Source: Tubiluchus corallicola (taxonomy: Eukaryota; Priapulida; Priapulimorpha; Priapulimorphida; Tubiluchidae). Taken from it: a stretch of 64,000 nucleotides of DNA. The notes below the pieces were generated by a model, which did no database searches, was not told where the DNA came from, and was given only the letters and a program-made list of their open reading frames with translations. The stretch lies in contig JAQGDQ010001084.1 of NCBI GenBank assembly GCA_030141605.1, positions 1 to 64,000 of the forward strand, given 5' to 3'. The translations under genes and the position numbers were made by a program. This document shows positions 1,711 to 62,751 of the stretch, one piece after another (within the stretch, counting starts at the first letter, position 1; every line of letters starts with the position of its first letter).

Positions 1711-1965
1711 AAGGTAAGTTACCACATTACTTAGTAAAACATGCCAACCCCAAACAAGGTAATAACATTACTTAGTAAAACATGCCAACCCCAAATGAGG
1801 TAAGTACACATTATAACATAACCCCAAACAAGGTAGTTACCACATTATTAGTAAAACATGCCAACCCCAAATGAGGTAAGTTACCACATTATTTAGTAAA
1901 CATGCCAACCCCAAATGAGGTAAGTTACCACATTATTTAGTAAACATGCCAACCCCAAACAAGGT
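1711..1965 (-). repeat. 45-bp tandem repeat, minus-oriented block (about 5-6 copies)
   Basis: The unit contains CATGCCAACCCCAAA followed by the complement of GTAACTTACC. It is the reverse complement of the array that begins at 1966. Copies here are less regular than in the plus-oriented block, with several 1-10 base losses. Confidence 0.8.
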
Positions 1966-9997: not shown

Positions 9998-10435
9998 TAC
10001 TCGAAGAATTATGACAAGTTACTTTAAAAAAAGCCGTGACCGATTTCGACTGCCATCTAGTGTGCTTTCAGAAGACTAAGCGCACATGCATTTTACTTAT
10101 TTTAAGATCTTGTGAGTTTTTATATAATTGTATTTTTGTATGATATTTAACAATGGCCCTGGATTGTCACAACTACTTTGTATAGTTGATACTAGTTGTA
10201 ATGATTTTTAGACTTCATTTTTGATGTAGTTGAAATCAAATAAGTAATAAATAATTAAATAAATAAAAAATCACCTTGCTATGTTTTCAAACGTTTTTGA
10301 CCCAGTGATTCAACTTTTATGTTAAATGTCCGATCAGATTTTAGCAAAAAACTTTTTCCTATGATTGTGGACGTACTTCCAGCAGCAGCTTCTATTTGGG
10401 CTTCTTTTATTTCTAGTATAATAGCTTAACAAATG

Positions 10436-11266
10436 TGCATGAAGACCCATAGTGTGACGACCCACAGTGTGAAGACTCATAGTGTGACAACCCACAGTAT
10501 GATGACCGACAATGTGGTAACCCATAGTGTGACGACCCACAGTGTGATGACCCACAGTGTGACGACCCACAGTGTGAAGATCCACAGTGTGACGACCCAC
10601 AGTGTGACGACCCACAGTGTGAAGACCCACAGTGTGACGACCCACAGTGTGACGATCCACAGTGTGACGACCCACAGTGTGACGATCCACAGTGTGACAA
10701 CCCACAGTGTGACCACCCACAGTGCGACGACCCACAGTGTGACGACCCACAGTGTGACGATCCACAGTGTGACAACCCACAGTGTGACGACCCACAGTGC
10801 GACGATCCGCAGTGTGACGACCAACCCACAGTGTGACAATGGGTCGTGTGACGACCTACAGTGTAACAATCCACAGTGTGACGACCCACAGTGTGACGAT
10901 CCACAGTCTGATGATCCACAGTGTGACGATCCACAGTCTGATGATCCACAGTGTGATGACCCACAGTGTGATGATCCACAGTCTGATGATCCACAGTGTG
11001 ACGATCCACAGTGTGACGACCCACAGTGTGACGATCCACAGTGTGATGACCCACAGTGTGACGACCCACAGTGTGACGATGGATCGTGTGACGACCTACA
11101 GTGTGACGATCCACAGTGTGACGATCCACAGTGTGACGATCCACAGTGTGACGACCCACAGTGTGACGATCCACAGTGTGACAACCCACAGTGTGACGAT
11201 CCACAATGTGATGATCCACAATGTGACGACCCACAATGTGACGATCCACAGTGTGACGATCCATCT
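10436..11266. repeat. 15-bp satellite, GACGACCCACAGTGT unit (about 55 copies)
   Basis: The unit alternates between GACGACCCACAGTGT and GACGATCCACAGTGT with a few interruptions, such as GGGTCGTGTGACGACCTACA near 10840. A 15-bp period keeps several frames open on both strands (Thr-His-Ser-Val or Asp-Asp-Pro-Gln-Cys repeats). These frames have no start context or splice sites and start and stop where the repeat does. Confidence 0.92.
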
Positions 11267-11343
11267 TGTGCAGTTGCTTTTGTGAAACGGCAATTAATTA
11301 CCCAAGAAATGAAATCTTATGAAATTTCCTACCAAATATTGTC

Positions 11344-11830
11344 TTAAAGGACAAGAAAAGGGGCACCTGAAGTAGGTTTCAGAAAAATTGCATTAAAAAA
11401 TCGATATTACTTTACAGTAATTTTATGCGTATATCGTATTCACGTTAAAATGAATTTTTGTTCGTTTTCGTTTTAAATCTCCCGCGATACTATTTGGACC
11501 GCACCATTACGTGACGTCATATGCGCACACCGTAAATCATGGAAAGAAAACGAAATGTTAAATTACGTCCTAAAAACTTTCCACGCAAATCTATATTACT
11601 TAGCATTTCACTTACCTGCTGGAAAGACTTATGTAATTAGACTAATAATTTAAAATGTTAGTGCCAATTGGTAAAATGTCATTGAATCACCCTCCAGGGT
11701 GCGCCACTCACTAACTAGAAACGTTTTTTTCGTCTTATTGACAAGATACAGTAATTTAAAATTTCACTTAATTAGCAACATGTATGCTACGAATGCTCTG
11801 ATTATTTTTTCAAACTCTACTCAATGTTGT
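11344..11830 (+). repeat. Dispersed repeat A, full-length-like copy
   Basis: Starts at AAAGGACAAGAAAAGG directly after the 15-bp satellite and continues through TTACGTGACGTCATATGCGC, CTCCAGGGTGCGCCACTCACTA, CTTATTGACAAGATACAG and TAGCAACATGTATGCTACGAA. It is nearly collinear with the foldback right-arm end and with 23124-23440. Confidence 0.8.
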
Positions 11831-18125: not shown

Positions 18126-18572
18126 GGTCACGAAGCACAGGGTCAGAGGGTCACGAAGCACAGGGCTAGATGGTCACGAAGCACAGGGCTAGAGGGTCAC
18201 GAAGCACAGGGCTAGAGAGCCACGAAGCACAGGGCCAGAGCGTCACGAAGCACAGGGCCAGAGGATCACGGTGCAAAGGGTCAAAGGTTCACGAAGCACA
18301 GGGCTAGATGGTCACGAAGCACAGGGCCAGAGGGTCACGAAGCACAGGGCTAGATGGTCACGAAGCAAAGGGCCAGAGGGTCAGGAAGCACAGGGCCAGA
18401 GGGTCACGAAGCACAGGGCTAGATGGTCACGAAGCACAGGGCCAGAGGGTCACGAAGCACAGGGCTAGATGGTCACGAAGCACAGGGCCAGATGGTCACG
18501 AAGCACAGGGCCAGAGGGTCACGCAGCAAAGGGCCAGAGGGTCACGAAACAAAGGGCCAGAGGGTCACGAAT
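18126..18572. repeat. 23-bp minisatellite 2 (about 19 copies)
   Basis: The unit is GGTCACGAAGCACAGGGCCAGAG, spaced 23 bases apart (TCACG at 18128 and 18151). Variants carry GGGCTAGAT. It is followed by TTTGGGTCAAAGGTC, which contains two half-sites like those bound by nuclear receptors. Confidence 0.92.
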
Positions 18573-18579
18573 TAATATG

Positions 18580-19100
18580 TGACCCATCACCTTTGGGTCA
18601 AAGGTCGTGTAGCGGGCAGGGATTGTTGTGTTTTTTTCATTAGACTGGATCTCCTCCTACAGTTTTTGAGCTAGGGCCACAATTTTTGGTATGTGGCTAG
18701 GTTGTGTCCAGTTGTCTTGCATGGCTGAATATGAGCCAATTGCGTTTGAGATAATTTCTCGGTAGGGAGCAAAAACCAACAGCATGAGGCTACAGGTGAC
18801 TGGTCAAAGAGTGACAAGCTCTGATTTCATTGAACCTGTTAATCGAGTCAAACACAGTAAAGAATGTGCAGTGTTGTTAATTATTTTGAAAACAATTTTA
18901 TTTGTAAATACAAAACAAAAGCTGTCATTAAAGCATCTCCTGTCACAGAAGCAGAATCTCACCACAGTTTTTGACACAGTCAAAGACGTCCACTAGTTTA
19001 GTATTGGTTTCGTGCATTCATAAGATCATCAGATTACTTGCAGTTTAATCTTAATTATTGTAGCATTACCTAGGGCACCGTATTGAGAAATTCCGTTTTA
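18580..19100. other. Non-coding stretch
   Basis: No gene, RNA or repeat of note is recognised. The 70-residue open frame at 18784-18996 has no recognisable features. Confidence 0.4.
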
Positions 19101-23811: not shown

Positions 23812-26800
23812 TTATTGTTTCACGCTTGCTCCCTTATCTCTGATTTTCTCAAAACCATGTGCAAATTTAAACACGGTGGCTTCGTCAAAGTGTTTTCCGA
23901 TTACCATCATCCCGATGGGAAGATGAGCTTCTTTAGAGAAACCAGCATTGACCGAGAGAGCTGGATGTCCAGTAAAGTTGAATGGCGCTGTGTTTTTAAG
24001 CCCTCCTACCGAAATATTTAGAAAATCTGTAAAAGAAAGTGAGCCATACTCTGTAAAGTTTGTTATCATTTGAGTTATGAGCATCACGCTACAAGCTTGC
24101 AGCACATTTGTATGTAAATCTCTATAATGCAGAATAACAGCAGGTCTATCAAAACTACAAGACTAAACTTAAGAGTTTCATTGTGCGCATGAGCAGTTGC
24201 TGTATTCGAACGTAGAGTGTACCACAGCAATGCGTCTTAACTACAACCGTCAGATGTCGTTTGTAAAGCAAAGCAATATGCCACAGCAGTTCAGTAACTT
24301 CAGTTGTTTACGAGGACTTTACTTAATTATGCATTATTCTGCACATAGAGTGATTTACTAGCAGGATCCTGCAGGTAGAGTGTACCACAACAATACGTCT
24401 TAACTACAACCATCAGATGACGTTTGTAAAGCAAAGCGATATGCCACATCAGTTCAGTAACTTCAGTTGTTTACGAGGACTTTACTTAATTATGCATTAT
24501 TCTGCACATAGAGTGATTTACTAGAAGGATCCTGCTTGGCAACAAGAAAAAATGAACTAGGTAAGGTTGTAGCTAGCTGTTAAAATTGTTACTATTACAA
24601 CAGCATGGGCTGCGAGACACTGTCAAATGTGAACAAATGTGTTGTCTTGTACACTTAACCCCTGACCTTTCACGATCATCACAAATCGCTGGAACTGTGA
24701 AAAGGCTTATTACTGGTAATTTTCAAATACATGTCAGTACTCTGCACATCAAGATCCAGTAATATGCAATTACTAAAAACAACCCAAACTGTAAGACACT
24801 ATGAACAAATGTGCTTTATTATAGCCACGTATGAGAGCAGAGATGTACTCAGTCAAATAAATAGTACAGGGACAAGTTGCAAATGAAACCACTTAGTAAC
24901 AGTTCTTTCAACAAATGCCCATCTGTTGTGTTTCGTTTCGTATTTTACAGTCAGCAATGCATATTTTTATAAGTGATCTAAGGCAAAAGGTTTCGGGCAT
25001 TGCGTGCTTTTTTGTCGGAGTTTCAGTTGACCTTTTTCGTTGGCAAAACTTGAATAAAGTTGTATTTTTCTATTAAGTTAAAGCAATCTACTCGTTAGCT
25101 TAATTATACCCTAGAACTCGTCACAAACCCAGTCAGCATTAAAGCGAGGCACGTAACAACTTTTTAAGTTAACCCCTTAACATTGTTCATATTTCCATGA
25201 ATAACAAGGGCAGCGTCGCAGCTTTTTTGACTTTTCCTTCACGCTCTTGATGCCACTTAATGACCGTTGACTATACTTGATACTAATTAGTACTCGTTAG
25301 CTTAATTATACCCTAGTACTCGTCACCATCCCATTTACTAATCAGGCTTAATCTGAGCATGGTTTAACATTGTTTGCTTAATCACACGTACACCGTGACC
25401 ACTCGACTAGCGCTCGCCCCAATGAAGTAAAGCGTAATTTTAATTGCTACAGCAGAGTATATTGCTTTGTTTTGCTTTTCTTAATAATGTGAAAAGAACA
25501 GTGTAGTTGTGATCAGTGATTTTTGTATACTTTTTAGGCTTTTTCTTTTATTTACTGTGGATTTTGTACTTAATCAATGATTCAGTTCTTCGGCTTGTGG
25601 TGTATTTCGACTTATGATATATTATGACTTCATTATACAATTCGCTTGCTTATGTCTAAGAATTATGCTTGTGTTATAAAGTATATTTGCCATTGTTATT
25701 AAGTTTCTGTTGTCAGATTTTTATATCAGTTCTTATTTCAGTTCAGTTTTATTTCAGTTATTTTCAGTTTGATTATTTTATTATGCACTTATTATTACTG
25801 TGTATGAATTGTACTAACACGTTATAAGCATTTCAATTTAATGTCATTCGTAACAATTAATTTTTATTATAAGCAGTACTAACACTAATACACTGTAGCA
25901 TAGCGCCTATAAAAAATGTTCATCACTAACCAAAGGGCAGCTGACTAGATGACCAATTGGTCTCTCACTGCCCTTTCTTCACATTTTTGTTTCCAAATTA
26001 ATTGTACTATGACTGTGCGTGTGTTACAAGATAAATAAAAAGATTATTATTATTATTATAGTAGTTATTAGTACATGCATTAACATAGCAAACTTACAAA
26101 GTTACTCTTCAGTGAAAGCATGTGCTTTTGTTTTTTTCACCTGAAGACAACCCGCCGCGGGTATCATATCTTTTCTTTTTCTATAGTGGGATATTTTTTA
26201 ATAAAAGTACACACAATTTTTCTGTGGCATTTCTGCAATTGTTTTCATGTTAATCTCATTCATACTATAAGAATCAAAGGAAAATTCAGCAATGAAGCCA
26301 TTCATTACTACCTAGTGAAATAAAACAAATAGAATCTCTCCACCACTTTAAAAAAGAAATTAAAAGAATATCAATATAACAGGTTTCAACTTCCACATTG
26401 TGCATCTGATACTAATAACACAGACTAAACTTTCATCTACCCCCGCCCCTGACTCCACAAAACGATTAAAAATGAAAATTTTTAAAAAATTATGTAATGT
26501 AATACGTGTTATGTTAGTTTTGTAATGTCAAATGTATAAATAGTGTAAATGTAATGAGTTAAATTTATGTAATGTAAAGCATGTTTCTGTTAATTGTGTC
26601 ATGTCAAATGTATATATTGTGTAAAATATGTCATGTAAAATTTAATGTACTTTTGTAATATTGTTTTGTAAAAATATTTTAATATGGTGTTTGTAAATAT
26701 GTTCATTTATTGTATATAATTAGACCTTAGTTTTGCACTTTAGTTTTTTTAATATGCACTGGACGCATTTGTCTTGAACAGTGTTGTTATTTTAACATTA

Positions 26801-29800
26801 TGCTGAGGCTTACTCAATTTTATTATAATGAGTGAACCCAAATAAAGAATTAATATATAATATATAAAAAAATTAGTTTACATTGTTTTAAACAGACCAT
26901 TATAAACAGACTCAATAACCAGTACCTGTGATAGAAACATCTTCGGTTGGTATCTTTGGCGGTAAGTGATTAATCGTTGGCATGACGATGACATCATACT
27001 TCTCCAGTACTTCATCGTACCTCTTTGTTATTTCGTTCATAATGTTCTTTGCCTTGCAGTAGAAGTCCAGTCCAAACTCTTCACGTATGTACTGGGGTAG
27101 TAAAAAACATAGCTTGCCAGTGTATGATAAGTACGCAGCATCGTTATTGAGTCCTTTTCGAAAAGCAGCTCCCAGAGAAAACGAGTTGTACGCTTGATGT
27201 CCAATTCCTGTCCCTGAAACACAAATTCAGCAATGAAAACATGATTAAATTCACAAACTCCTGTTCACAGGAATTAACACATTGTCAGCAGGGGCGGAAC
27301 TAGATGTGGCAAGCAGGGGGGGGAGGGCGCAAAAATTTTCTGGGGGGTCGAGGTATCCGAAGTGGTTAAATAATGGTTAAGCCAATTTTTAACCCCTTTT
27401 ATACTGCATGCAAGCCTATAATTAGCGTGTGTAGGACGGCGTAGCGGACAGAGTAATAATGAGAAAATTAACTCTCAGTTAACTTAACGTTATTAATGTG
27501 CCTCTAACTAAATTGTTATTTACAGAAATTTATCACACAAAAGTTTTAAGAAAATAATATACTGAAGCTACCAAACATTTTTTACCTAATTCTAATTCAT
27601 ATTGAAAATGATTACATGCGAACTGTAATTTTCACTGCAAAAAAAATTATTTGTCCGATTTTGCAGGGGGGCCCCCCCTCGCTCCCCCCTAATTCTGCCC
27701 CTGATTGTCAGCTTACAAGACAGATGCATGCAGATTAAAAGTGCTATTAATAGAATACCATAAAATTTATTTTATGAAAATTTACCTTGTAATCTGAACA
27801 TTCCTTCGTATCCACCCTGGTAAAGTAATGGTACACAAGCTTCAACAGCTGAAAAATAAAGTGATTAAATAATGAATCAAGGTAGACTAGACTACAACGA
27901 TGAACATACTTCTAATTTGGTGACCACAAAGACTCCTAACATTAAATTTAACAGATTAAGGTACTGTAACCAGAGGAGAAAAAGGTGTAATAAAATTTAA
28001 TGTGGGATCTCATTTGGTGCAGCATAAGGCAGTGCAGAATGAAATCCCTTATAAATACACATAGTAATAAAAAGAAATTTTCTACCGAATCAAAATGCGA
28101 CCTGAATAGTAATACATACTGCTCATGTCACATTAATGACTTGCTTTCATTCATAGCTTTTACACATTGCTTCCACATGTCCTGTAAAATGTGTCTGGGC
28201 ATCTGCCAATGCCCTAAACCAGCAGACACATCAAGCTGACATACAAAAAGTAAATATTGCATAGTTTCACTGAAAAATATTCACTGAATTTCATGTAATT
28301 TGTGAGTGCCATCTATTGGCAGCAGTATGGTTAGAATATCCCTTCCTCAACTTTGATAATTTGCAATCGGTTTGTAACCACAACAATGTAGTTCCGGTAT
28401 TGATGCAGTAGCTAAAATTCTCCGCATATATCTGCAACTGTGATATATTATGATGTACTGGTTGTAAATTACCAAAAGATAAATTAATAATGATCGCACG
28501 TACACTATCTTAATTGGACTCATGTAATTGTATCGAGTATAATGTGCAACTCCGAGACGTATGAATTCTGTAATTGTTAACTAAAACTATATTGGTCAAT
28601 AAATGCAATTCAATTCAAGTCACAGTAACAGTTAGTCAATTCATGCCTTTTAGTTTGGGAATAGAAATGGCACTAACCCTCAGCATGCTCTGAGATAGAG
28701 ATTATATCGACGATTGCACCGCTCTCTCTGGTTGCCATGACAGCATCAATCACCACTTGTTTCACTTCCTCGTCTGCACCCATGAATCCTTCCTCTACAA
28801 TACCGACCTTCATGTTGTTAATGTCACCAGTCAGCTGCAAAACATAAGCCAGTACAATTTACAGATGCCAAGAAATAGGTCAAAATTCACAATGTTATTG
28901 GATATATATATTTTTGCAACTGTTTCGAGAACTCCAGATTTTTTTATATAATATTAACTTATCAATTTCCAGTTATCAATCCCAAAACTTCACCAATAAC
29001 AAATAATTATATTTTTCTAAATACAAGTCACATTTTCTAAAATGACCTTATATATGTAGGCCAGTTTGGTAACATTACTCAGCCTAGTATGGAGCATAGA
29101 AATCTAGGTTGCAGGTAGAAAACAAATGCGCAGCAATATTTTTGTCCAGTAACTTAATATTTAACCAGTAAAAAACAGAAAAACGAAAAGTTAAGACAAG
29201 AAAATTCTTTTGCTGTTCTAGGAATAAGCATGATGAAATAAAAAACACCAACTAATAATCATGTTCTTTCAAGAATGGTTTCTCAGTTTATCAATACATG
29301 TGCGTTATTATTAATATCAAGCTACTTGAAGAAGAAAAATAAAAACAATAAATATGAATTACCGATTCTGTGTAGTTCGGAACACGGACATTCTTATGTA
29401 TTCTGTCATCTAGCAAATCTGGCCCAGCTATTACTTCTAACAGCAATGCACAGTCATACACTGTGCGAGTCATTGGTCCTAAAGTATCGGTATCATACTG
29501 TATGCTGGCCGCTCCCGTATACGGTACGAGTCCAAATGTAGGCTTCAAGCCAACGCAACCACTGCAACACGCTGGACAGCGAATTGAGCCAGCCTGGTCA
29601 CCCCCAATTGCTAAATCTACATGACCACCAGCTACCTACAAACAAAAAAAAATTATTATGTAAAAAAAGAAAAAGTAAAGCCAAAAAATGGTCGGCCAAA
29701 ATTCAATCCAATTAAGGAGCTCGATTAATTAACTTAACTTACGAGAGCAGCAGATCCGGAACTTGAGCCTCCAGCGATGTATTTTTCATTGTAAGGGTTC

Positions 29801-31818
29801 CTCACAGGTCCTGAAGCAGGGGTTAAACTGCCTACATCTAGACAAAGATTCCCACACGATGATTTTCCAATAATACGTCCTCCTGAACAAAGTACACTCG
29901 CATTATTAATGGCTAACTAGTCTAGAATAAGTATAAGAATTTCGGAAAACATAGAATTGCTCATGCGCATAATAACATGAATGGTAAAATTCACCAGCAT
30001 CCAAAATCCGACTCACAACCGTAGCGTCAAAATCTGGAACATAACCCTCCAAAATTTGGGACCCATTACTCATTGGGACTCCTGCTATCATGACGCTGTC
30101 CTTGATGGCAACTGTCTTTCCTGCAAGCTTACCAGTCAGAGCTCCTGAAATGTCAATCTTCCAAGCCCTGACAATAAACAAAAAATGCTGCAGTAAGCTA
30201 ATAAGATAACAATAATATATATAAAACACAAAATGATTTGAAATAAGTACTTTTGTAGTTGTTTCGTTGGCCTACAATAACACAGAACTCAAATTTCTAC
30301 AATTACTGAAGTGCATAATGTAGAAAGTACAGTATACAATTCATTTACCAGGCATTGTAGGGGTTATCTTCGGGTGTTGGTCTATAACCTGGTGTCCGGG
30401 GATACTTTACTTGTGGAATAGGCTCTACCAATTGTGCGATGAGTTTGAATCCTCCTAGGAGATCGGTAACACAGTCTAAAACAAGATTTTAAAAGTGATA
30501 TTGTTTGATGGAAACTTCCCATTAATATTAATATGTTAATTATGATAAAAATATTGCCAAAAATGTGTATGCTGCGCATGCAGTAATGGTAGTACAGTAA
30601 ATACGATCACAACTCTAATTACCCGTTTTATTAACATAAAAATTTATGCTAGAATTAAAGGAAATTGTTAACACATTTTATAAAGTGAGTATTGTACAGT
30701 ACATAAGTTTTACTTTTGTAATCCTCCAGTTCTTCATTACTGCAGCCCAATCCATATTTCTTCGATATAGCTGAAAGGCGATCCAAACTAGGAGCGTTAA
30801 TTCCCCTGGCCCCTAGCGGCCCTAAAAAATTGACAAGATTAATTAGTAAAGATATAAACCCTTCACAGCGTATAATTACGCAACAAAAACCACAAGCAAA
30901 TATTTGCTCAATCTAAATTTCGGCAGTTTATTGCACAAAAACAAGCCTCTTCGAAGATACACAAATGGTAAAATATAAACTTATGAACGTCTAATTTCAT
31001 AATATATTGGGTACGACGGCATCAGAACCAATCACCTTATCAAGGACAACTTTTTGAAATACGGAACTGGCAATGACGTCTTAGTCATGCTCAGATAAAA
31101 CGCAGCCACCATGTGCAAACGAAACAGTCAAGTGATCACAAATCAAATCATTGAGCAGGTTTAGCATTACTTAACTTTCATCACCAAGCACATAGTTGTC
31201 ATCCAGCCATTTACCCGACCACATACTACTCCCACCATCCGGGCTTAATATTGAAGAACAAAACAAACCTACCTATGCTAATCAATAGAAAATCACTGGG
31301 AAGCTATTGAGCATTTATAGGCAACAATCAAGGTACCATTGTATCACACTATACACCTATCACATTTAGCATTGATCTAAATACATTAGTTAATAATAAT
31401 GCGCGAACATCCTACATATTCCTAATTTATAACGCAAAGCCAGCAGCAGCGGCTTTTAGTGAATTAAAGTTATAAGGTTAAAGGCAGAGTATAATGGATG
31501 ATGTCACAACAATGGCTTTGCATCAGCTGTTTTCCAAGCGAAAATTGCCGAAAATAGAACATCTAATTAACTCGTCGGCACTCCTCTTGGTGGACGTATC
31601 CTAAAATATAGCCCACATCATCGTGTAACCCTGTTCTTCCTCTTTCTAAAGAGCCATATATCTCCTTATGAGAGTCCCACCATAATAATAATAGTAATAA
31701 TAATAATAATAATGTACATTACAAAACTTGAAACCAGTGCAAATTTTCAAACATGAGATAGTTAAAAATGTGTACACTTACTTTCATTCAACGCACCCTT
31801 GGTTTCCAACTGTGACAT
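23812..31818 (-). CDS. Amidase-signature hydrolase, paralogue 1 (10 coding exons, 526 aa)
   Basis: Coding exons in transcript order: 31818-31782, 30821-30714, 30475-30349, 30167-29995, 29882-29743, 29635-29363, 28834-28678, 27848-27786, 27213-26926, 24026-23812 (TAA 23814-23812). All introns are GT-AG, phases agree and the sum is 1581 nt. The protein starts [20 protein letters not shown]. The amidase-signature triad is visible: Lys113 in [10 protein letters not shown], Ser188 in [10 protein letters not shown] and nucleophile Ser212 in GGDQAGSIR, spaced 24 residues as in the family. Such enzymes hydrolyse amides to acid and ammonia. The length of about 520 aa and the DNPYNAW and GLVPYTG segments resemble bacterial nitrile-pathway amidases more than FAAH or GatA. 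There is no signal peptide or membrane segment, so it is probably cytosolic. The substrate is unknown. An AATAAA lies 31 bases after the stop. Confidence 0.9.
24190..24714 (+). mobile_element. MITE family C copy with internal tandem duplication
   Basis: It matches the reverse complement of the element at 48022-48424 and ends with the same GAACTGTGAAAAGGCTTATTA terminus. A 163-bp internal segment (starting GTAGAGTGTACCACA) is present twice in tandem, at about 24210-24372 and 24375-24536. The left terminus is degraded. It lies in the last intron of amidase paralogue 1. Confidence 0.6.
25085..25330. repeat. Two copies of a 35-bp motif in the last intron of paralogue 1
   Basis: ACTCGTTAGCTTAATTATAC followed by CCTAG occurs at about 25089 and again at about 25293. 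It is probably part of an older dispersed repeat. Confidence 0.5.
25900..26062 (+). mobile_element. Retroelement 3' tail with stem-loop and ATT repeat
   Basis: AAAGGGCAG ... CTGCCCTTT (25932-25976) forms a stem enclosing GACTAGATGACC and TGGTC. It is followed by AATAAA and an (ATT)n tail at about 26041-26062. The same stem-loop, with partly different stem bases, is at 35092-35134. A stem-loop followed by a simple-repeat tail is typical of LINE or SINE 3' ends. The body is not identified. Confidence 0.45.
27289..27703. mobile_element. hAT-like MITE family D, copy 1 (415 bp)
   Basis: Termini are CAGGGGCGGAACTAG and the complement of CAGGGGCAGAATTAG. Both flanks carry the 8-mer ATTGTCAG (27281-27288 and 27704-27711), a perfect hAT-type target duplication. 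The interior is G-rich at the ends and non-coding. It is inserted in intron 8 of amidase paralogue 1. A longer relative is at 40516-41068. Confidence 0.88.
29743..29882 (-). other. Amidase paralogue 1 exon 5: cis-serine motif
   Basis: Encodes the [11 protein letters not shown] segment and ends [10 protein letters not shown], the first half of the amidase signature. Ser188 is the proton-relay serine. The exon ends in phase 0 immediately before the loop to the nucleophile in the next exon. Confidence 0.85.
31683..31713. repeat. (ATA/ATAA)n microsatellite
   Basis: A run of AAT/ATA units just downstream of coding exon 1 of amidase paralogue 1, inside its first intron. Confidence 0.7.
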
Positions 31819-32410
31819 TTCCAAGCGAGACCTTACATGCTGTTTAAGCATAAGTAGCAAGTTTTGGCCGCCAGTAGAGCATATTTACACAATACTCTAT
31901 ATAGTTTACATTGCACGTAAACCAGTCCCTTGATCACCCAACGTGACCCTGACACATATTAGTATAGCTTTCTGCCAAAAATTCAAACTAAATTTTGCAT
32001 AACACGCGTTGTATTTACGTGCAAACGTAATTTATTATGGTACCAATATTAAGTTATAATAACAGCTACTGCAAGATAACATATAATCAGATGAAAAATA
32101 AGCATAAATTATGCACACTGTACAGACCGTTCTCTACGAAATCTACGAAATGTGCCTCTAAGAAATTACTTTTTCAACTTCTTATTATAATGTGTATGAC
32201 GCTAAGACTTATTGTAAGCTTAGTTTCGATTCTAAGAAACAAGTCACAAGTTTAATGGTAAGGTAAACAAAATTAAAAAATGTGCATGATAAACCTGAAC
32301 CAACTTGTCAGTAACAAAAATACAGTAAGAATCAGTTATATCCTGTTCAACAGTTGTATATTTTTTAAACTTTACACATTTAACAGGTAGATAAAAAAGA
32401 CCGAAGCTTT
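31819..32410. other. Gap between the two amidase genes (promoter region of paralogue 1)
   Basis: About 590 bases separate the paralogue 2 stop from the paralogue 1 start. The gap must hold the 3' end of one transcript and the promoter of the next. No TATA box in a clear position and no trans-splice-like acceptor before the ATG is seen. Confidence 0.4.
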
Positions 32411-32411
32411 T

Positions 32412-35400
32412 TTATTTTCCATCTCTTAATTTTTCGACAGCATGTGCAAATTTCAACACATTCACTTCATCAAAGTGTCTGCCCACTATCATTAATCCAA
32501 TAGGCAGCTTGTCTGGCTTAGAAAATCCAGCATTTATAGAGATGGCAGGATGTCCAGAACTATTGAAAATTGCGGTATTGTATAGCATTCCGAATGCAGT
32601 ATGGATGTACTCTGAAAAACAAGCAGCTAATGTACAAAACAGAATTCAAATGATTACAAAACAACAAAGTAACAGTAACTACATGACCATGTGAAGTGAT
32701 ATATCTCATAACAAAAAATCTGCTAAAATTCGCTAACAATTTCAAATACATATACAGTGTTCCCTCGCTACTTCGCGGTTCGTTTATCGCGGACTCGCTG
32801 TTTCGCTGGTTTTCAGAAATATTAATGTAAAATATTTCCCGAGGTATTTTCGCTGTTTCGCGGGTTATTGCAGTACTCTGTCTAAAGTATTTTTGCACAT
32901 GCGTAGTACGTATTGTACAGAATTTTGCATAAAAAATCACAAAATGTGTAAAAATATATTAAAAATATTAATTCTAACATTAAAAGAATATTATAAATCA
33001 TAAAAATTACCATTTACAGTAAATAGTGTATTTATTTAGCAGATGAATACACACCAAAAACGAAATGTAGCACTTGCATGAGATGCTACTGACCGACGTG
33101 AGATTGTACACAACACACGATTGGTATGTATAAGAGTGTGGGGAGGGGTTATAAAAACTTAAAAATAATGTATAACTACTAATGTGGGCCTGGAACGGAA
33201 CACATGCGATAGGTGAGGGAACACTGCATTATAATAGTTGAAAAAATCAGATATCTTACATTTTACAAATAAAAAAAATTGAATCCTACTTCACTACTCT
33301 AAGCTTGTAATTGTACTGAGTTTTATCATATGTAATACTTATGATTTTGTAACGATGATGATGCTTACAGTGTCAGTGGCAGCAGCAGCAACACTGCACC
33401 AAAGTCACTGATAATGATTACAATTAGGTACCGTAAAACTATGATTTACAAAATGTAAGTAGCATTGCAAAAACTACTTTCTATGAACTACAGAAAACAA
33501 TAAAATTAGTGAACTAAAATTATTACACTAATACCAAGTACAATTTAAGACCAGATGGTTTAGTCTAGTGGTAATGCGTCTGCTTTCCGTCTGGGAGGTC
33601 GTGAGTTCGAACCAGCGGCCGGGTCATACCAAAGACCTTAAAAATGGTATCTGCTGTTGGCCTGCCTGACGCGTGGTATTTAGGGTAAAAGTGGGGTAAT
33701 AATAGTCTCTGTTATGCAGTTGTAGGTTGTTATTTACAGTCGGCGATAATAGCTCTTTGAGCTAATGTTAATTGTTCACCCAAAAGCCGACTTTAAAATA
33801 AAGATTATTATTATTATTACAGTAATTTAGCTCACAGAATTGAATCACTTATTAAATATGCTAGTTATTTTAATAAAACTGAAAAAATCATGAACGTAAA
33901 TTGCACAGGCTTACGCAGGGATCAAAACTGTTTTACAAAAATTTTTAAAAAAAGTTCTTAACAAGGGAAAGCTGTAAAAAGAATAAGTTGATGTTAATGT
34001 TAAACTTACCAGGTATGCTGCAATCATCATTCGGTATTTTAGGTGGCAAGTATGTTATAGTAGGCATCACAATGACGTCATACTTTTCTAGTGCTTTGTC
34101 ATACTCATTGGCTATTTCACGCAGGATGTTCTGTGCCTTACTATAGTACTGAAAACCAAATTCCTCCCGAGCATACTCAGCGACCAGAATCATCAGTTTA
34201 GCTGTGTGTGACAGATATGGGGCCATGTTGCTATAGCCCTTGCGCATAGCAGCTCCGAGAGCTGTTGGGTAATAACCTCTGTAGCCAACCCCGGTTCCTG
34301 TGAAATGCAAAATATTAAACAAATCTGTCTAATGAAAAACAAAAATGCACTTATTTCACAAAAAAATTTACACAAGCATTAAACTATAAGCCGATTGCAG
34401 TGCATTAAGGTCTAGCTCAAACAGAAGTAATCTTGAGCTCCCATGTACCAGGATAGGTGACAAATCATTCAGTTCTGATTCCCCGAATTGTAGAATTCTT
34501 TGCCCCTCTAATTACGCCTGATCAAGTCGCTTGATAATTTTAAAGTCTGAAAACTTACTAATTTAACGAAGTCTTCTGTGGTTGAGCTAATCTTGCATTT
34601 TCTACGATTATGTATGTTTTATGGCATTGCTTTTATTATTTTACTAAATTTTCAGTGTTTTTATTATTTTCCCTTTTTTGTCATATTCAATGTACTTTTA
34701 ATCAATCAATGTGTCACGGTCTTATATATCGTACGATTATAATTTTTTAGTAATTTTGACAATCTTTCATTTGTAACATGCTTTTGATTATCATGTAAAA
34801 TGTATTAAAAATGTTCAATAAGTTATTAATTATTAAGCAAGGTTATGCTTAATCTCTCTCTCTCTCTATACATATATATATATATATAACTACTATATAT
34901 AATAATCCTAATTACTGAATAACTGTATTGTTTTGTTTAGATTTTGGTATCTAACTTTATTATGTTTTTTTTTCAGTTCTTTTTAGATAATTTGCATCAT
35001 TTATACTGTTTTTATTTTTTTTCTTATTTTTTTGTTTTTGTTTTTGTTATCTGCAGCATCACCGTTAATTTTTCATATACTAATCTATTTATAAGGGCAG
35101 GAGACTAGATGACCCTATGGTCCTTCCCTGCCCTGCTCCATGATTATAATTACTTAATATTTAAAAAAACTTTTGATGTTAAACTAATTGGAGAAAATAA
35201 ATGTTCTATGTCTATGTCTATGTGTACAAATAATGGCAGTCACATTTTGCATAAGAAATAAAAACAAATAAAAATACATGTACCTTGCATTTTCACAAAC
35301 CATTCTGTGCAGCCCTGCAGAAGCATTGGTGTATACACTTTTGCAGCTAGAATTAAAAAAACAATATGCAAATTTAATATTCAAAAAATCACACAAGCCT

Positions 35401-38400
35401 AAATGAATGCAACACACAACGAAACACGGAGAGTAATAACTTAGCCATTAAGATGACCAGTGTTTGTGTTTTATTAGACAATGGTGATCTTGAAAAAAGG
35501 ACAAATACAGGATGGTCGACAAAAAACATTCTTCCAAGTTAACTCCGTTCACTCTAGTAGAGACATTTTTAAGTGAGACCCCATCACCGCTTTCTCTTTA
35601 CAAACAACCGTAAATTTCCGTTTAAGACACGCAACAAGTACAGTTAAGCTGCTGGAGGTTTTAGCTGTTATTTTCCTAGAGTACTACTGCGCAGAAAAAA
35701 TGTCTTAGCGGTACACGGCATCTTTAGAAAGCAAACAAACCGAGCTACACTGTGGTGTGAGTCTCTTCTACAAATGCCTCTACCAGGATAAAGGGTACGA
35801 GTTAGCTTGGGGAACATTTTTTCTGGACGACCTGTATTTCATTATCAGTAAAAAATTAAAACTTAGTTCCTACCATAACTATGCTCAGGAATTGAAAACT
35901 CTTCAATAACAGCACCTCGCTGGTTTGTCGCATAAATCATGCCACGTACCACCTCGACAACTTGTTCATCAGCGCTTGCAAATCCTTCCCTTAAGATACC
36001 GACCTTCATTCCTTTGATATCACCTGTAAGCTACATTTCGACAAATTACAATTCGCCATCGCCACATAAGTTATCGTGTGGGATGCATGAATTATTAAAA
36101 TTAAATTTTAGCAAACAAACATAATAAATTACTGATTTCATTGTTTACCCTAACACAGGGGTGTGCAAATTATCTGACTAGCCGGGCCACATTAAACTTT
36201 CCCACAATTCCTGTGGGCTGCATGCAGTTTCGTCAAGGAGCCAAGTACAGTAGAACCTAATAACGATTTTTCTGCATCTGATCTGTCACATCATTACTAC
36301 TGCACTACTTACTACACTCAAGAAACTATTTCAGAAGTTATTAAAATTTATATTAAAAACCATATATTTCGTCATGTCCGACAGTGACATTAAGTGACAA
36401 CGGTCTTGTAAGGGTTAATGCCATCCGATCTAGGGGAAAAAACTACCCGCACTATCTTTTCAACATTGGTGCAGACTTCAGCTGGATCGCGTGGGTCGCA
36501 CGTTCATTAGGTTGACAAACCTCTTCGCAGGCCGAACAAGATCTCTCGGCGGGTCGCAGTTTGCACACCCCTGCCCTAACAGTTGTATTAGTCGAATTTT
36601 TATAATTCAAGAAAGAAGTCTATGCATTTCCTTATTGTTGTAAGAAGATATGTAAGCCTACAACTATTATAGGTAACTAGTTTTACTTATTGTCCTGAGC
36701 ATGTGCAATTGCACTCAGTTGCTGTAATTTCCTTTAATTTAAACCTTTAATTTTTCAAACGAGAGTTTCTACAACAAATAGACACTGTAAAACGAACTGC
36801 TTTAAAAAACCCAAACAAGCACGTACCAACAGCCAAGCTGCATATATAAATAATTGTTCAAACCTGCTCCTCGACATTAATGCAACATTTTTATAATTCA
36901 AGAAAGACGTCTTGCATAAGATTGCATTTTATGATTTCCTTATTGTTGTAGGAAGATATGTAAGCCTACAACTATTATGGGTAACTAGTTTTACTTATTG
37001 TCCTGAGCAAGTGCAATTGCACTCAGTTGCTGTAATTTCACACTGAGGTTTTATAACGCAGTGGCAAGTTGGAAGGTTTTCAAGACTAGTCTGAACAACA
37101 AAACACACAGGTGACAATGAATGTAACGAATATGAAAGAAAAACAAACCCACTGCATGCTTTATCATTTTAACTATTGCCTAGCAGTTGTTCTTCAAGCC
37201 ACACGTCAATAACGACGGTGTGTGAGATTGCATATCGGGGCAAAACAAATAAGAAACGTAACAGTTATTGAGTACTATTAGAACTGCTCCATTTGTAATA
37301 CTACTGATCAATGCAAATGGCAAAGAAGGCAAACAACGGCTTCACCTGCGTGTTATAGTAAGCAGTTCATTTGATCACACAACTATACAGCTGCAGGTCA
37401 ATGCAAAATGATACAGTTTCAAACAGAAGGCTGGGGCGTTTTTCCTTTGAGGTGACAATAGATGAGGCGCCAATGGTGATTAATATAAGTTATTCAATGT
37501 AAAGTAGTTCATTATGTTTTTGTCTTTCTTAGATAATTGCATTATGTTTTTGTCTTTCTTAGATAATTGCACAAAAATTCAATTATTAATAATTAAATTA
37601 TTCTAAAAGAGGTAAAACTTGTAAATTAACAACACTCAAACAATTTGTTAAAAACTCTTTTACTGCTAAAGAGTATTGAATGACGGTCTCTCATCAATTC
37701 ACTGCCAAGGTCAATGATACTTAACTTCAATTCCTCAATATTCACCCTACCCACTTGTTTATCCATTCACTTCGCCTCAAGAACACTTTTACTAAACACA
37801 CTAAATTTGCACAATGGACGCCTTCAGACATATACATTAAGTTCTTAGTAAAATAGCAAAATTAATCATAATTACCATCTCCGTGTAATTTGGAATTTTC
37901 ACATCCTTTTGGGTTCTGTCATCGAGTGGATCATACCCAGCCAACACTTCTAACAACAGCGCACAATCATAAACAGTACGGGCCATTGGACCCAGATGAT
38001 CTAAATGATATTCCATACTAGCTCCTCCTGTATACGGCACCAAACCAAAAGTAGGTTTGAGACCAACAACACCACCCCAAGCACATGGGAGACGAATGGA
38101 CCCGCCCTGATCTCCGCCGATGGCCATATCGACTTTCTCACCGGCTAACTGAAAAATGCAAACAGCCACCAAATTATGCAGTGCAATCATTTGTACGTGA
38201 ACAATTTAGATTTTCATACTATATAATGTTGAGGCATTACATAAACTAACTTTTAACACTTTCAACAAAACTATCAACAAAGAAATTAGCAAACCACAAG
38301 TTGCACATGCGCATATATAACACACAGACATGTAACTTTGTACGTATATTGTAAGATTTATGAACTGAATTGCTAAAATGCAAGTAAAAATAAGACAATT

Positions 38401-41400
38401 GAATTAAGACAGGTGAGGCAGCGAAAATTTTCATTAAAGCAAAAAAATTGCTGATACCAGTGCTGCGCATCCGGTGCTGGAGCCTCCGATGCAGAATTTC
38501 TCATTATGTGGATTTCTCACTGGACCAGTAGCAGACGTGTGACTGCATCCACTTATGCACAGATCTTCACAGGTAGCTTTGCCAACGATACGGCCACCTA
38601 GTGAAAAGACTAGCATTATAATTTGACTGTCATTTAACGGAAATGAAGAGTTTTTCCTCGGTGGCAATTCGCGGTATTTTTCAAAAGCAATTAAAGTTTA
38701 TGGACAAACATCTGATTAAGCGAACAGTATATAACACATACGAAGCATTAAAGTCAAAAGTAAATCCTCACTATTCAATTAATTTTATCACAAACTTACT
38801 GTAAAACTTTTTTTTGATTTTTTATCACTTCGTTGTTTGCGGTATTAAATTTGAACCGCCATTTTTCGTTGTGTGAGACGAATGATGTAATGAGGACAGC
38901 CACGAGTGAAAAAAGATCGGTAAACAAACCTCAGTAACCAAAGATGCTTTCTGCAATAAGTACGTGATTCTCGCTCTCTCGTGCACAAGATGCGGTCTTT
39001 ACGGCAATGCACGCATTCGATATGCGACAAAAAAGGTAAGTTATTTCATTTGTAAGTTACTTTTATCAAAAAGTAATTATAAATTCTTTGTGTGACCATA
39101 ATAATACAATAAAAACACCTCAATGTTTGTTGCGCTTATATAAACCTTTAATTTTTCAAATGAGAGTTTCTACAACAAATAGACACTGTAAAACAAACTG
39201 CTTTAAAAAAAACCCAAAGAAGCACGTACCAACAGCCAAGCTGCATATATAAAAAATTGTTCAAAATTGCTCCTTGACATTAATGCAAGTTAAGCAACAC
39301 ATATAAATATGGCAGAAATTATAGGGTTTCCAACAGGGATTATCTTTTCTTTAAAGTACCAACAGCCAAGCTGCATATATAAAAAATTGTTCAAAATTGC
39401 TCCTGAACATTAATGCAAGTTAAGCAACACATATAAATATGGCAGAAATTATAGGTTTTCCAACAGGGATCATCTTTTCTTTAAAGTACCAACAGCCAAG
39501 CTGCATATATAAAAAATTGTTCAAAATTGCTCCTGAACATTAATGCAAGTTAAGCAACACATATAAATATGGCAGAAATTATAGGTTTTCCAACAGGGAT
39601 CATCTTTTCTTTAAAGTGACAAAGATATCAATCTCCAATTCCATTTAATTGGAAATCACTATTAACATCCCACTCACATCATCCACTCTCTCAATGACAT
39701 TAGTAAAAAAATTTTAAAAGATTTAATTATTCGCTCAAAAAATTCCCGAAAGCAGCAACAGCGAGGCAAATTTTTCTACATTTTTTGCAAATTTTCAACA
39801 CGAAAAAGTAACAGAACTACAACTACATGGTAAAATGTTTCTTCTTGAATTATTAACATCAATGTATCACTAGCAGATATCATACATTTTGTGATTAAGT
39901 TATCACTTTTGCTGATGCTTTGTTCACTTTTCAGATAGAGTTATTTCTCACAAGCGCCATCTAGTGTCTATTTTTATAAACTTTCATCCTGACCACTTGA
40001 CACACAATTTACCTGCGTCTAGTACTCTAGTAACTACAGTTGCATCCATATCTGGAACAAATCCTTCTAGAATCAAAGAACCATTCATCATTGGTACTCC
40101 AGCCACCATAATACTATCCTTTATGGCCACGGTCTTTCCCGAGAGCTTTCCGGATGGCGCTCCCTGGATGTCACATCTCCAGTACCTGAAATTTTGAAAT
40201 GTGAAGCTGATGAGCTGTGTAACTCACCTAACTCATAATCCTAGGAGTAATGTAGTTTAGCACTGAAATGATTTCACAAATTTAAAAACATCATCGGCCT
40301 TGATCAACGATCAGTTCATATTCAGGTGAATGCAAAATTGAGTTTTACCAATTTTCATACTTTTTAAGCACAAGTGAAAAGTCCCAATTGATGAGCATGA
40401 AAAGACCAAAGTCAAATCTTTGAAAATCATGATCCGTGAAAATCTATTTGTACAAAAAAACTGCCAACAATGGTGGAACTCTTTACTTAGGTACTCTTAC
40501 CATTTACCATTAATTCAGGGGCGGAACTACATGTGGCAAGCAGAGGGGGGGGGCGCAAAAATTTTCTGGGGGGGGCAAGGTATCCGAAGTGGTTAAATAA
40601 TGGTTAAGCCAATTTTTAGCCCCTTTTATACTGCATGCAGGCCTATAATTAGCATGTGTGTAGGACGGCGTAGCGGACAGAGTAATAATGAGAAAATTAA
40701 CTGCATTGTTTTTGCTCTATTATTTCACTGCTGAACGAAGCTCGAGTGCTTACTGAGCCGTTTTGTTAACTAACAGTCTTTTGTGCAAAGACGCTAATGC
40801 TACTCAACGAGCTGCTTTGTTAACTGTTCCTGCCTGCCTCCTGAATAGATTACATACAAACAAATTAACTACATCCTGACTTTCAGGTAAACACATCTGG
40901 TCAGGCACGTATTAACAGTCAGAATAATTTAACTCGGTGACAAACTTTAATGATAAAAAATATTATTGTGCTACTGCAAAAAAAATTGTTTGTCCGATTT
41001 GGCAGGGGGGGCGCAAATTTTGACAGGGGGGCACGCGCCCCCTTAGCCACCTCCTAGTTCCGCCCCTGCATTAATTAACAAACATACAATATGACATGTT
41101 TGTACTCACAACCATGCTAATTCCATTTTTAAAAACCATGCATCTTAGAAACTACTTCACAGAAAAATCAAAAATTTTTGCAAAAAAAATCCTCCACAAA
41201 AAACAGAAGTCCGCCGACTTGAGCTTTAGTAACCCAAATGCAAAAAAACTTGCCAAGCATTATAAGGATTGTCTTCAGGTTTTGGTCGGTAACCGGGTGT
41301 CCGTGGATACTTCACTTCCGGCATCGGTTCCGTCAGCTCCGCTATTTTCCGAAATGATTGCATCACATCGCCCAGACATTCTGAAAAGTTACCTTCAATA

Positions 41401-44068
41401 CTAGCAGCAGTCACACATTTTAGATGTTATTTATTGAGAACTAGTCACATTTCTTGTGTGAAGCCTGGAGAGACTATTTATACAAGATGATTTTATGTAA
41501 TAATAATAATAATCATCTTTATTTAAAGTCGGCTTTTGGGTCAACAATTAACACTAGCTCAATGAGCTTTTATCGCCGACTGTAAATAACAACCTACAAC
41601 TACATAAGAGAGAACTATTATTACCCCACTTTTACCCTAAATACCACGCGTCAGGCAGGGCAAAGCAGGTACCATTTTTAAAGTCTTTGGTATGACCCGG
41701 CCGCTGGTTCGAACTCACGACCTCCCAGACGGAAAGCCGACGCATTACCACTAGACTAAACCGTCTGGTCAAGGTGCAACAGTAACTAACAGATCACCTC
41801 TGTATTCTTCCAGTTCTTCGTCGCAGCATCCTAAACCATAGTTTTCTGATATAGCTTGCAGTCGTGGTAATGTTGGAGGATTGACACCTCTAGCTCTGAG
41901 AGGTCCTGCAAAGTAAAAGTAAAGTGCGTGATTACGTTACAAGCTACAAAGATCACAAAAAATTGAAAATACAAAAAAGTCACATTTTAAATATTAAAAC
42001 ATTAATTGCATAGCAAGCAAACTTTATGCTTTATAGATAAAATGAAAACAGGCATTAACAGTATTTTTAATGAATAGCTGAATATTAAATCATACTGTTT
42101 GTGTTCTTTCTTTGCCTTAAAGAAGAAGAGAAGCTATTAGATGCTCAAAAAATCCATAGTGAAAATGTCTGTAAACAATGGCTTTTCAACAATTTCTGCA
42201 AGAAGGTTGAATTAAGCGAGCACTTTTGGCAAGCCCCAAATTTTTTCTTAATTTGCCGCATCAAAAAACTAAAGCAAATGTAGAGATGCTTGATGGTGCA
42301 TTGTTTGCTCAGCGATGCATCACTTTGAAATAAGAGAGTACCTGTGTGAGACCTCAGCTACTAATAAGAGACCGACCAGTTTATACATTGTTTACACAAC
42401 CAGCAAAACATAACTACCTTTCAAGTTAAGACTGAACTTTGTTTTGATTCCTAAAACTTTAAGAGAAGTGTTGGTTTTCTAGCCTAATTAATCCAACAAG
42501 TTATACTAAATTACTGCATCACATCGATCTGTGCATCCTAACTTGGCTAGAAAAGGCTAAGGCAAAAAATATGAAAAGTTGTTGCCAAAAAAATAAAAGC
42601 AAGTAGACATGCAAATAAGTTTAGGAATGACTGGTCCAGTCTAAGTCTTGTATTTCTATTAAATGTGACATGCAGAAGCGGCTCATGTATAGGCACTGTG
42701 GAACTGCAACACCCCCTATTTTCACTCGATATTATTGATAGCATTCAGTATAATGAATCTTTTTTTATTCTCAATTAAATACTTGTACATACTTTGACGG
42801 AACTGTGTGTTTCACAGTTCCCGCGACGAGATCTTTGGCTGTTGTGTAAGTAGTGTTTGGTTCTGACTCAGCGTGCATCGGGCTTAAAAACCATATATTC
42901 TTGAATGTGATAAAGTGTAGAATTGGATTCGTAATTATCATGCTTCCACAGCCATTCTATTCAATTATGTTTTTTCGGTTCTTTAATTTTACAGAAAATT
43001 CAAATAATTTAATCATGGCAATCTTGCATCCCCAAGAAATAAGTTCTGTGACAATAAGTGAACTTCAACATTGTTTTACACATATTACAACGGCAAAAAA
43101 ATTTTGAAGCAACACCCCACTAATTTTAACTATACGAACCACCACTGGTGACATGTATACAATTTATATTGATAATTTACCCAAAAGGTCGACCTTTTCC
43201 GATCGTCTGGCCGACCTTGGGCGACTGGAGGCGCTAAAACAATAGACAACCAAAAAAACTTAGTTCAGTTGGTTGTTGTATCTCTGTGTATTCCTTTTAG
43301 TTTCTGTCACAGGTTCATATCCTTCTCTAGTCTTTCTCTTTTAAAGTGCTACGTGCATGGTTTCAAATCATCACAGTAAAATCACATTCATTGTTTCGCA
43401 CTCATTTCCTCAAAAAATATCGTCTGCTCCGACCGGGAAAAACATCACATGAAAACGAGCAGGGTCAGTCGAGAACTGTACGACTTCCAGAGAAGAAAGG
43501 CGCTCTAGCGCATTTTTAACGGCAACGCCCTAGAGAAAAAAGCCAAAGGACCTAATACCAACTTCTCCCCTCAATTTGACGTCAGTTTGCTTTAAACTAA
43601 CTGACTAACGAAAAACAAAAATCAGTAATAATCCGATAAAATGCAAGCAAACGCAAAGATAATTACGTGTATGTTAATTTATAATGTTCCAACAAAGTTG
43701 AAATCGAAGTAACCTTGAAAAATTCTAGCTCATTCCGTACTCATCAAAAATATCAGTTAACTCTTTCAGCTAGCAAGCAAAATAAAGGACATGCCAGTAA
43801 CAAAAATTCAACCAGGTAGTACACAACTTGTTATTAGCAAAATAATTTTAATATTTAAAACATTAACGTGAAATTTGCAGTTATTTACCTGCTGCAGTAC
43901 TAACCAATTCTAGCTCAGTAATTCATAAAGTGATTGGATAAAACGACAAATTGATGGCAAGCTTGCAATTAGCAATCATCATCATACACTCCCTCGCCAA
44001 GGCACGTAGCGTGGTGTTATTAGTTTAACAGACTTACCGCTTTCAGAAGGCTGCGTAGATTCTGCCAT
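32412..44068 (-). CDS. Amidase-signature hydrolase, paralogue 2 (10 coding exons, 519 aa)
   Basis: Coding exons in transcript order: 44068-44038, 41905-41798, 41380-41254, 40185-40013, 38597-38458, 38148-37876, 36030-35874, 35346-35284, 34297-34010, 32611-32412 (TAA 32414-32412), totalling 1560 nt. Exons 2-9 have exactly the same lengths and phases as in paralogue 1. The protein starts [18 protein letters not shown]. The catalytic residues are Lys111 ([10 protein letters not shown]), Ser186 ([10 protein letters not shown]) and Ser210 (GGDQGGSIR). The [16 protein letters not shown] segment and the length of about 520 aa fit bacterial nitrile-pathway-type amidases. Protein identity to paralogue 1 is roughly half by eye. 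It is probably cytosolic and the substrate is unknown. The intron after exon 3 uses a GC donor (CTTG|GCAAGT). An AATAAA overlaps the stop. The gene lies head to tail between Par-3 and paralogue 1. Confidence 0.92.
32755..33226. mobile_element. pogo/Tigger-like MITE, copy 1 (472 bp)
   Basis: It starts CAGTGTTCCCTCGCTACTTC, preceded by TA, and ends GTGAGGGAACACTG. The inverted relative is at 55147-55579. CAGTG..CCCTC termini with TA targets are typical of pogo/Tigger-type mariner-like elements. Non-coding. It lies in intron 9 of amidase paralogue 2. Confidence 0.7.
33549..33820 (+). mobile_element. tRNA-derived SINE, copy 1 (plus)
   Basis: The head has a tRNA-like A box (TAGTCTAGTGGTAATGCG) and B box (GAGTTCGAACC) at the expected spacing. 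It is followed by about 180 bp of tail ending ACTTTAAAATAAAGATT and an (ATT)n run. The reverse-oriented relative is at 41499-41770. Both copies are in introns of amidase paralogue 2. Sequence is too short on stems to be a functional tRNA. Confidence 0.8.
34850..34890. repeat. (CT)n-(AT)n microsatellite
   Basis: CTCTCTCTCT followed by ATATATATAT in intron 8 of amidase paralogue 2, just before the retroelement tail at 35.1 kb. Confidence 0.8.
35080..35225 (+). mobile_element. Retroelement 3' tail with stem-loop
   Basis: AGGGCAGG ... CCCTGCCCT (35093-35134) encloses AGACTAGATGACC and TGGTC, as at 25932. It is followed by AAATAAATG and a CTATGT repeat tail at about 35202-35224. It is probably the 3' end of the same LINE/SINE group as at 25.9 kb. 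Confidence 0.45.
36156..36573. mobile_element. hAT-like MITE family E, copy 1 (418 bp)
   Basis: Ends CAGGGGTGTGCAAA and the complement CAGGGGTGTGCAAACT. Flanks carry CCCTAACA at 36148-36155 and 36574-36581, a perfect 8-bp duplication. The second copy is at 52221-52680. Non-coding. It lies in intron 6 of amidase paralogue 2. Confidence 0.88.
36600..37040. repeat. 145-bp direct repeat (2 copies) around a fragment shared with 39.1 kb
   Basis: TTTTTATAATTCAAGAAAGA ... CACTCAGTTGCTGTAATTTC occurs at about 36598-36740 and 36888-37037. Between them, about 36740-36885, is a stretch (AACCTTTAATTTTTCAAACG ... CCAACAGCCAAGCTGCATAT) nearly identical to 39143-39290. Confidence 0.75.
37876..38148 (-). other. 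Amidase paralogue 2 exon 6: nucleophile-serine exon
   Basis: Encodes [20 protein letters not shown], with the acylating Ser210, followed by [16 protein letters not shown] and [15 protein letters not shown], the core of the amidase-signature fold. The 273-nt exon equals its counterpart at 29363-29635. Confidence 0.88.
38458..38597 (-). other. Amidase paralogue 2 exon 5: cis-serine motif with Cys variant
   Basis: Encodes [13 protein letters not shown] and ends [10 protein letters not shown]. In most family members and in paralogue 1 the residue after the second Gly is small and uncharged (Ser, Ala or Gly). Cys190 here is an unusual choice next to the active site. Confidence 0.8.
39143..39616. 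repeat. 130-bp tandem repeat (3 copies) plus leader
   Basis: Units start TACCAACAGCCAAGCTGCAT at 39227, 39357 and 39487 and end ATCTTTTCTTTAAAG. They are almost identical, so the expansion is recent. The 85-bp leader plus part of a unit is also present at about 36740-36885. It lies in intron 4 of amidase paralogue 2. Confidence 0.85.
40516..41068. mobile_element. hAT-like MITE family D, copy 2 (553 bp)
   Basis: Ends CAGGGGCGGAACTAC and the complement of CAGGGGCGGAACTAG. The target duplication CATTAATT is perfect on both sides (40508-40515 and 41069-41076). It shares outer parts with 27289-27703 but has a longer interior. It lies in intron 3 of amidase paralogue 2. Confidence 0.88.
41499..41770 (-). 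mobile_element. tRNA-derived SINE, copy 2 (minus)
   Basis: This is the reverse complement of the SINE at 33549-33820, with the same tRNA-like head (GTTCGAAC B box near 41706) and (ATT)n tail. It lies in intron 2 of amidase paralogue 2, immediately downstream of exon 2. Confidence 0.8.
41906..44037. other. Intron 1 of amidase paralogue 2, no further feature
   Basis: About 2.1 kb of AT-rich intron. No exon, RNA gene or clear repeat is recognised. Confidence 0.5.

Positions 44069-47291: not shown

Positions 47292-62751
<15,460 letters not shown>

Follow-up and report, generated by a model that had tools for sequence, protein, structure and literature searches.

Two tandem, intron-rich animal genes encode amidases of a bacterial nitrile-pathway subfamily

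We report that two adjacent genes on an animal contig, probably from a sponge and here called A and B, are encoded by the host, are rich in introns and belong to the amidase subfamily PRK07235 (NCBIfam NF005565), and that their products are of the structural type of the Rhodococcus sp. N-771 amidase. With them, an amidase subfamily known from bacteria gains a real and new branch in animals. The probable origin of this branch is the horizontal acquisition of a gene from a bacterium long ago, a reading to which we give a probability of about 0.6.

The window, by which we mean the whole 64,000-nucleotide stretch of DNA analysed, holds two complete amidase genes arranged head-to-tail on the minus strand, with B upstream and A downstream. 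Both could be rebuilt from the DNA, and the description in the earlier note of two tandem genes for amidases of about 520 residues stands. The gene models are as follows.

44068-32412, minus strand: gene B, 10 exons, 519-residue amidase; stop-free spliced open reading frame with splice sites
44068-44038, 41905-41798, 41380-41254, 40185-40013, 38597-38458, 38148-37876, 36030-35874, 35346-35284, 34297-34010, 32611-32412, minus strand: exons of gene B
31818-23812, minus strand: gene A, 10 exons, 526-residue amidase; spliced open reading frame
31818-31782 (start provisional), 30821-30714, 30475-30349, 30167-29995, 29882-29743, 29635-29363, 28834-28678, 27848-27786, 27213-26926, 24026-23812, minus strand: exons of gene A

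Position 23812 is the last base of the A stop codon and 44068 is the A of the B ATG, so that the outer limits agree exactly with those in the earlier note. Exon 1 of gene A, including the start codon, is a provisional prediction, and 593 bases separate the B stop from this provisional ATG. The exon lengths are 37, 108, 127, 173, 140, 273, 157, 63, 288 and 215 nt in A and 31, 108, 127, 173, 140, 273, 157, 63, 288 and 200 nt in B. Our recomputed lists thus agree with the earlier count of eight identical lengths out of ten, with only the first and last exons differing. All nine intron phases are also equal between the genes (1, 1, 2, 1, 0, 0, 1, 1, 1), and the proteins are 61% identical (317/519). 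The 63-nt exon 8, which is hard to spot by eye, was located between exons 7 and 9 as a same-length, same-phase, splice-bounded open pair in A and B. This pair had the top score of 32, followed by sub-stretches of itself at 27 and 20, and the next unrelated pair scored 10. The introns of both genes have GT-AG ends except for intron 3 of B, which is GC-AG; its donor, gcaagt, lies at 41253 on the minus strand, and the corresponding donor in A is GT.

The genome contains a further pair, B2 and A2, arranged in the same order on contig C2091. C1943 and C2341 also carry A2 and the end of B2; their search scores are identical, and they look like two haplotypes. In addition, there is an isolated exon 6 on C1690 and isolated last exons on C1510 and C1289. 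Across exons 2-10, the range compared, the paralogues have the same exon boundaries except that exon 7 of A2 is longer by 12 nt. The proposal that the intron set predates the duplication is upheld, and the set is likewise older than the second duplication, which copied the whole pair. Between A and B, synonymous sites have reached saturation; dN/dS is ~0.17 for A/A2 and ~0.12 for B/B2, and the copies are under purifying selection. The A2 frame on C2091 (L031, C2091:184500-194499) breaks in exons 6 and 9 and the C1943 copy reads through, which points to either an assembly error or a broken allele that is segregating. Exon 4 of B (40013-40185, minus strand) shares 96% protein and 89% DNA identity with that of B2 on C2091, compared with about 51-89% protein identity for the remaining B/B2 exons, which reflects either stronger constraint or gene conversion.

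On the NF005565 profile, whose curated cut-off is 545 bits, B reaches 643 bits and A 588 bits; the matches span positions 2-502 of the 506 in the profile and take in the N-terminal region that carries the DNPYNAW motif. The gatA model (TIGR00132) gives 281 (B) and 258 (A) bits, below its cut-off of 481.1, and Pfam assigns only the general Amidase family PF01425 (B, E 4.9e-87). A search of the PDB places the Rhodococcus sp. N-771 amidase first (3a1k, E 6.4e-119), ahead of GatA (9.1e-58) and FAAH (5.4e-34) and about 60 orders of magnitude in front of the next match. Together with the tree placement described below, the passed cut-off and the PDB ranking bear out the view in the earlier note that the proteins resemble nitrile-pathway amidases more closely than they do FAAH or GatA. 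The host copies have in common with the Rhodococcus enzyme (3a1i, 3a1k) their subfamily, the Lys-Ser-Ser triad, the essential Asp and the GGDQGGSIR core. They differ from it in that the Rhodococcus gene is bacterial and intronless and has Trp at position 328, a residue that the host copies replace.

Bacterial relatives were collected by a scan of prokaryotic genomes in which loci were chosen by the motifs DNPYNAW and GC(C/S)(D/N)EELE. The resulting sample comprises 69 loci, the best of which matches residues 18-514 at 50% identity. At 14 of these loci the fetched 4 kb flank contains a gene for nitrile hydratase alpha, and nitrile hydratase is present in 22 of the 25 genomes of these relatives that were tested. 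Plasmids contribute 87 records with a relative. The best of these, WP_248295928.1 from Parageobacillus thermoglucosidasius (PRK07235/NF005565), is a full-length subfamily match with 51% identity over 97% of B. It sits in a nitrile hydratase operon in the order nthB, nthA, accessory protein gene, amidase, cobalt transporter genes, whereas the host genes stand apart from any nitrile hydratase gene. The second-best plasmid relative, from Bradyrhizobium, does not adjoin nitrile hydratase. From the flanks, genomes and plasmids we therefore conclude that the subfamily often, though not always, catalyses the second step of the nitrile pathway, and that it is carried on plasmids. Its distribution is patchy, with the cut-off passed by 20 of 398 genomes sampled in one bacterial phylum and 3 of 297 in another, and there was no viral relative among 600 pattern matches.

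Three trees, sampling bacterial members of the subfamily and genes of this one host genome, all unite the four host proteins as one clade inside the bacterial subfamily, with support of 100/100 in the two careful trees. The split of the subfamily from the outgroup has support of 100/99, and three bacterial rows (L116 as well as L044/L050) split off outside the host clade at nodes with support of 98/88 and 94/91. This nesting favours the horizontal acquisition that the earlier note had raised as a possibility. Transfer is nevertheless not proved, because a constrained tree in which the bacteria form a single clade excluding the host genes, although 11.4 log units worse, survives the AU test (p-AU 0.108). 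The host branch, at about 1 change per column, is too long to point to a donor. In the history that we propose, a host ancestor would have acquired one gene from a bacterium, and this gene would have gained nine introns; a tandem duplication would then have produced A and B, and the pair would later have been copied to give A2 and B2. We infer the direction and age of the transfer.

The alternative that survives best is vertical descent, with the gene ancestrally present in eukaryotes and subsequently lost from many of them. Nitrile hydratase genes occur in several eukaryotic supergroups and have been explained by an ancestral origin followed by numerous losses, particularly in animals (PMC3323583), and on account of these genes we regard ancestral presence as a real alternative, albeit one clearly less probable than transfer. 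It is compatible with the AU test, which retains the host genes as sister to all bacterial members, and nine introns fit an old eukaryotic gene. It is harder to square with the bacterial rows that fall outside the host clade in the free trees, and with the failure to find the nitrile hydratase partner in this genome.

Two sets of published genes from other animals are comparable in part. Penicillin amidase is the same as penicillin acylase, an enzyme family unrelated to the A and B amidases. Its genes in Mnemiopsis and corals share the name amidase with A and B, and transfers to these non-bilaterian animals have been reported (PMC6005172, PMC4878875). The prokaryote-derived candidates of the sponge Amphimedon queenslandica are, like A and B, genes for enzymes of bacterial type that have introns and have been duplicated in tandem; the main text of that study does not mention amidases (PMC4784904). 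Our literature search found no paper on PRK07235 and no report of transfer of this amidase subfamily in sponges.

Alignment to 3a1k and residue mapping place the active site and associated elements in the following exons.

41254-41380, minus strand: exon 3 of B, DNPYNAW segment, within the N-terminal domain that is specific to the subfamily; the GC-AG intron comes after it
40013-40185, minus strand: exon 4 of B, catalytic Lys111 (Rhodococcus Lys96), from alignment to 3a1k
38458-38597, minus strand: exon 5 of B, GGSSTG with cis-Ser186 (Rhodococcus Ser171), from alignment to 3a1k
37876-38148, minus strand: exon 6 of B, GGDQGGSIR core with nucleophile Ser210 (Rhodococcus Ser195) and the essential Asp (191), from alignment to 3a1k and residue mapping
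29363-29635, minus strand: exon 6 of A, GGDQAGSIR core with the nucleophile Ser, from residue mapping
35284-35346, minus strand: exon 8 of B, 63 nt, Tyr at the position of Rhodococcus Trp328
27786-27848, minus strand: exon 8 of A, 63 nt, Cys at the position of Trp328

Lys96, Ser171, Ser195 and Asp191 (3a1k numbering) are retained without exception, in the four host proteins as in the 97 bacterial rows, and the host copies change between 1 and 4 of the 79 positions that are at least 95% conserved among the bacteria. Position 328 is Trp in 80 of the 97 bacteria and is Tyr in B, Cys in A and A2, and His in B2. In the Rhodococcus enzyme, Trp328 is probably part of the lining of the substrate pocket, together with Phe146 and Ile227. 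Because every host copy replaces this Trp, the natural substrates have probably diverged from the aromatic amides on which the Rhodococcus enzyme acts, and we read the host copies as conserved, putatively active enzymes with a changed substrate. Asp191 and Ser195 are essential (quoted in PMC11205548). By homology, the enzymes would convert small primary amides to acid and ammonia, with catalysis by the Lys/cis-Ser/Ser triad proceeding through an acyl-enzyme; this predicted activity, and any substrate or role, is deduced from sequence.

The earlier note had suggested looking for a nitrile hydratase in the same genome. None was found with the alpha and beta models in searches that proceeded exon by exon and may miss split genes, and on this basis we set a host nitrile hydratase aside. 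The alpha model is the one that detects the gene in 22 of the 25 bacterial genomes above, and the beta search was run without a positive control. Generic carbon-nitrogen hydrolases are present in the host genome. As nitrile hydratase was not found, the analysis gives no support to a complete nitrile pathway encoded by the host. The enzymes may serve to detoxify dietary or microbial amides.

A pathway split between host and symbiont is thinkable because the sponge Aplysina cavernicola has a measured nitrile hydratase activity on aeroplysinin-1, for which symbionts were considered the likelier source (PMC3766881). Symbionts would then supply the nitrile hydratase step and the host amidases would complete a nitrile detoxification or defence pathway, in keeping with the action of the bacterial homologues beside nitrile hydratase and with the failure to find this enzyme in the host. 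We consider this unlikely, and the altered pocket position 328 of the host copies speaks against it. A little less likely again is the fuller scenario of an acquired nitrile-operon amidase, expanded with altered pockets, that is used on amides released by symbiont nitrile hydratases. If true, one nitrile pathway would be divided between host and symbiont.

It is very improbable that A and B are divergent host FAAH or GatA paralogues that have converged on the bacterial motif. The host does possess FAAH-like and GatA-like genes (on C379, C1387, C2042 and C2185), and these share the amidase signature superfamily PF01425 with A and B. They nevertheless belong to other subfamilies. In the first tree, which included both types, they lie far from the four-protein clade and outside PRK07235, and a phylogenetic check of the kind proposed in the earlier note, run with bacterial and host genes, accordingly places neither protein inside FAAH or GatA. 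The profile scores and the full-length N-terminal domain also give PRK07235, and exon boundaries differ where compared, those of A and B being unlike those of the FAAH-like gene on C379. Scores, tree and exon boundaries together lead us to reject a FAAH or GatA origin.

Bacterial contamination, least credible of all, is rejected in spite of the apparently bacterial contigs in the 343 Mb assembly that carry single-frame amidases (L001, L002 and L003 on C863, C2335 and C1761, up to 874 kb, which are probable symbiont contigs), given ten exons with spliceosomal sites, a GC content of 0.33 in introns versus 0.45 in exons, same-intron paralogues on other contigs and a Par-3 gene on the same contig. 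The last is represented by a Par-3-type PDZ domain exon at 57685-58410 on the minus strand (best matches Partitioning defective 3, 7e-24), and since Par-3 is an animal polarity protein the contig is animal. A search of the host assembly for innexin, run without a positive control, found none. On contig C529, three neighbouring frames match a silicatein-like query at 52-57%. With these results, and with an assembly of this size that also holds apparently bacterial contigs, a demosponge is our best estimate of the host, although it falls short of proof.

The window also contains several repeats. Two tRNA-derived SINE-like copies, 94% identical, lie in B introns 2 (41501-41790, minus strand) and 9 (33549-33819, plus strand), with A-box-like and B-box-like elements and a TTA-repeat tail, and B intron 4 holds three tandem copies of a ~130-nt unit (39230-39650, minus strand). 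Long open frames of short tandem repeats, for example VTYLIWGWHVLLSN and THSVT, are found at 1919-3312, 10334-11347 and 18308-18643, and the frame at 631-1080 on the minus strand resembles, by eye, a reverse transcriptase of non-LTR retrotransposons (C-terminal part).

With the A and B genes, a bacterial amidase subfamily that is used industrially acquires an animal branch that is duplicated, selected and rich in introns, in what is probably a sponge and hence in a phylum for which nitrile hydratase activity has been measured. They raise the testable question of which amides these host-encoded nitrile-pathway amidases cut, and of where the gene came from.
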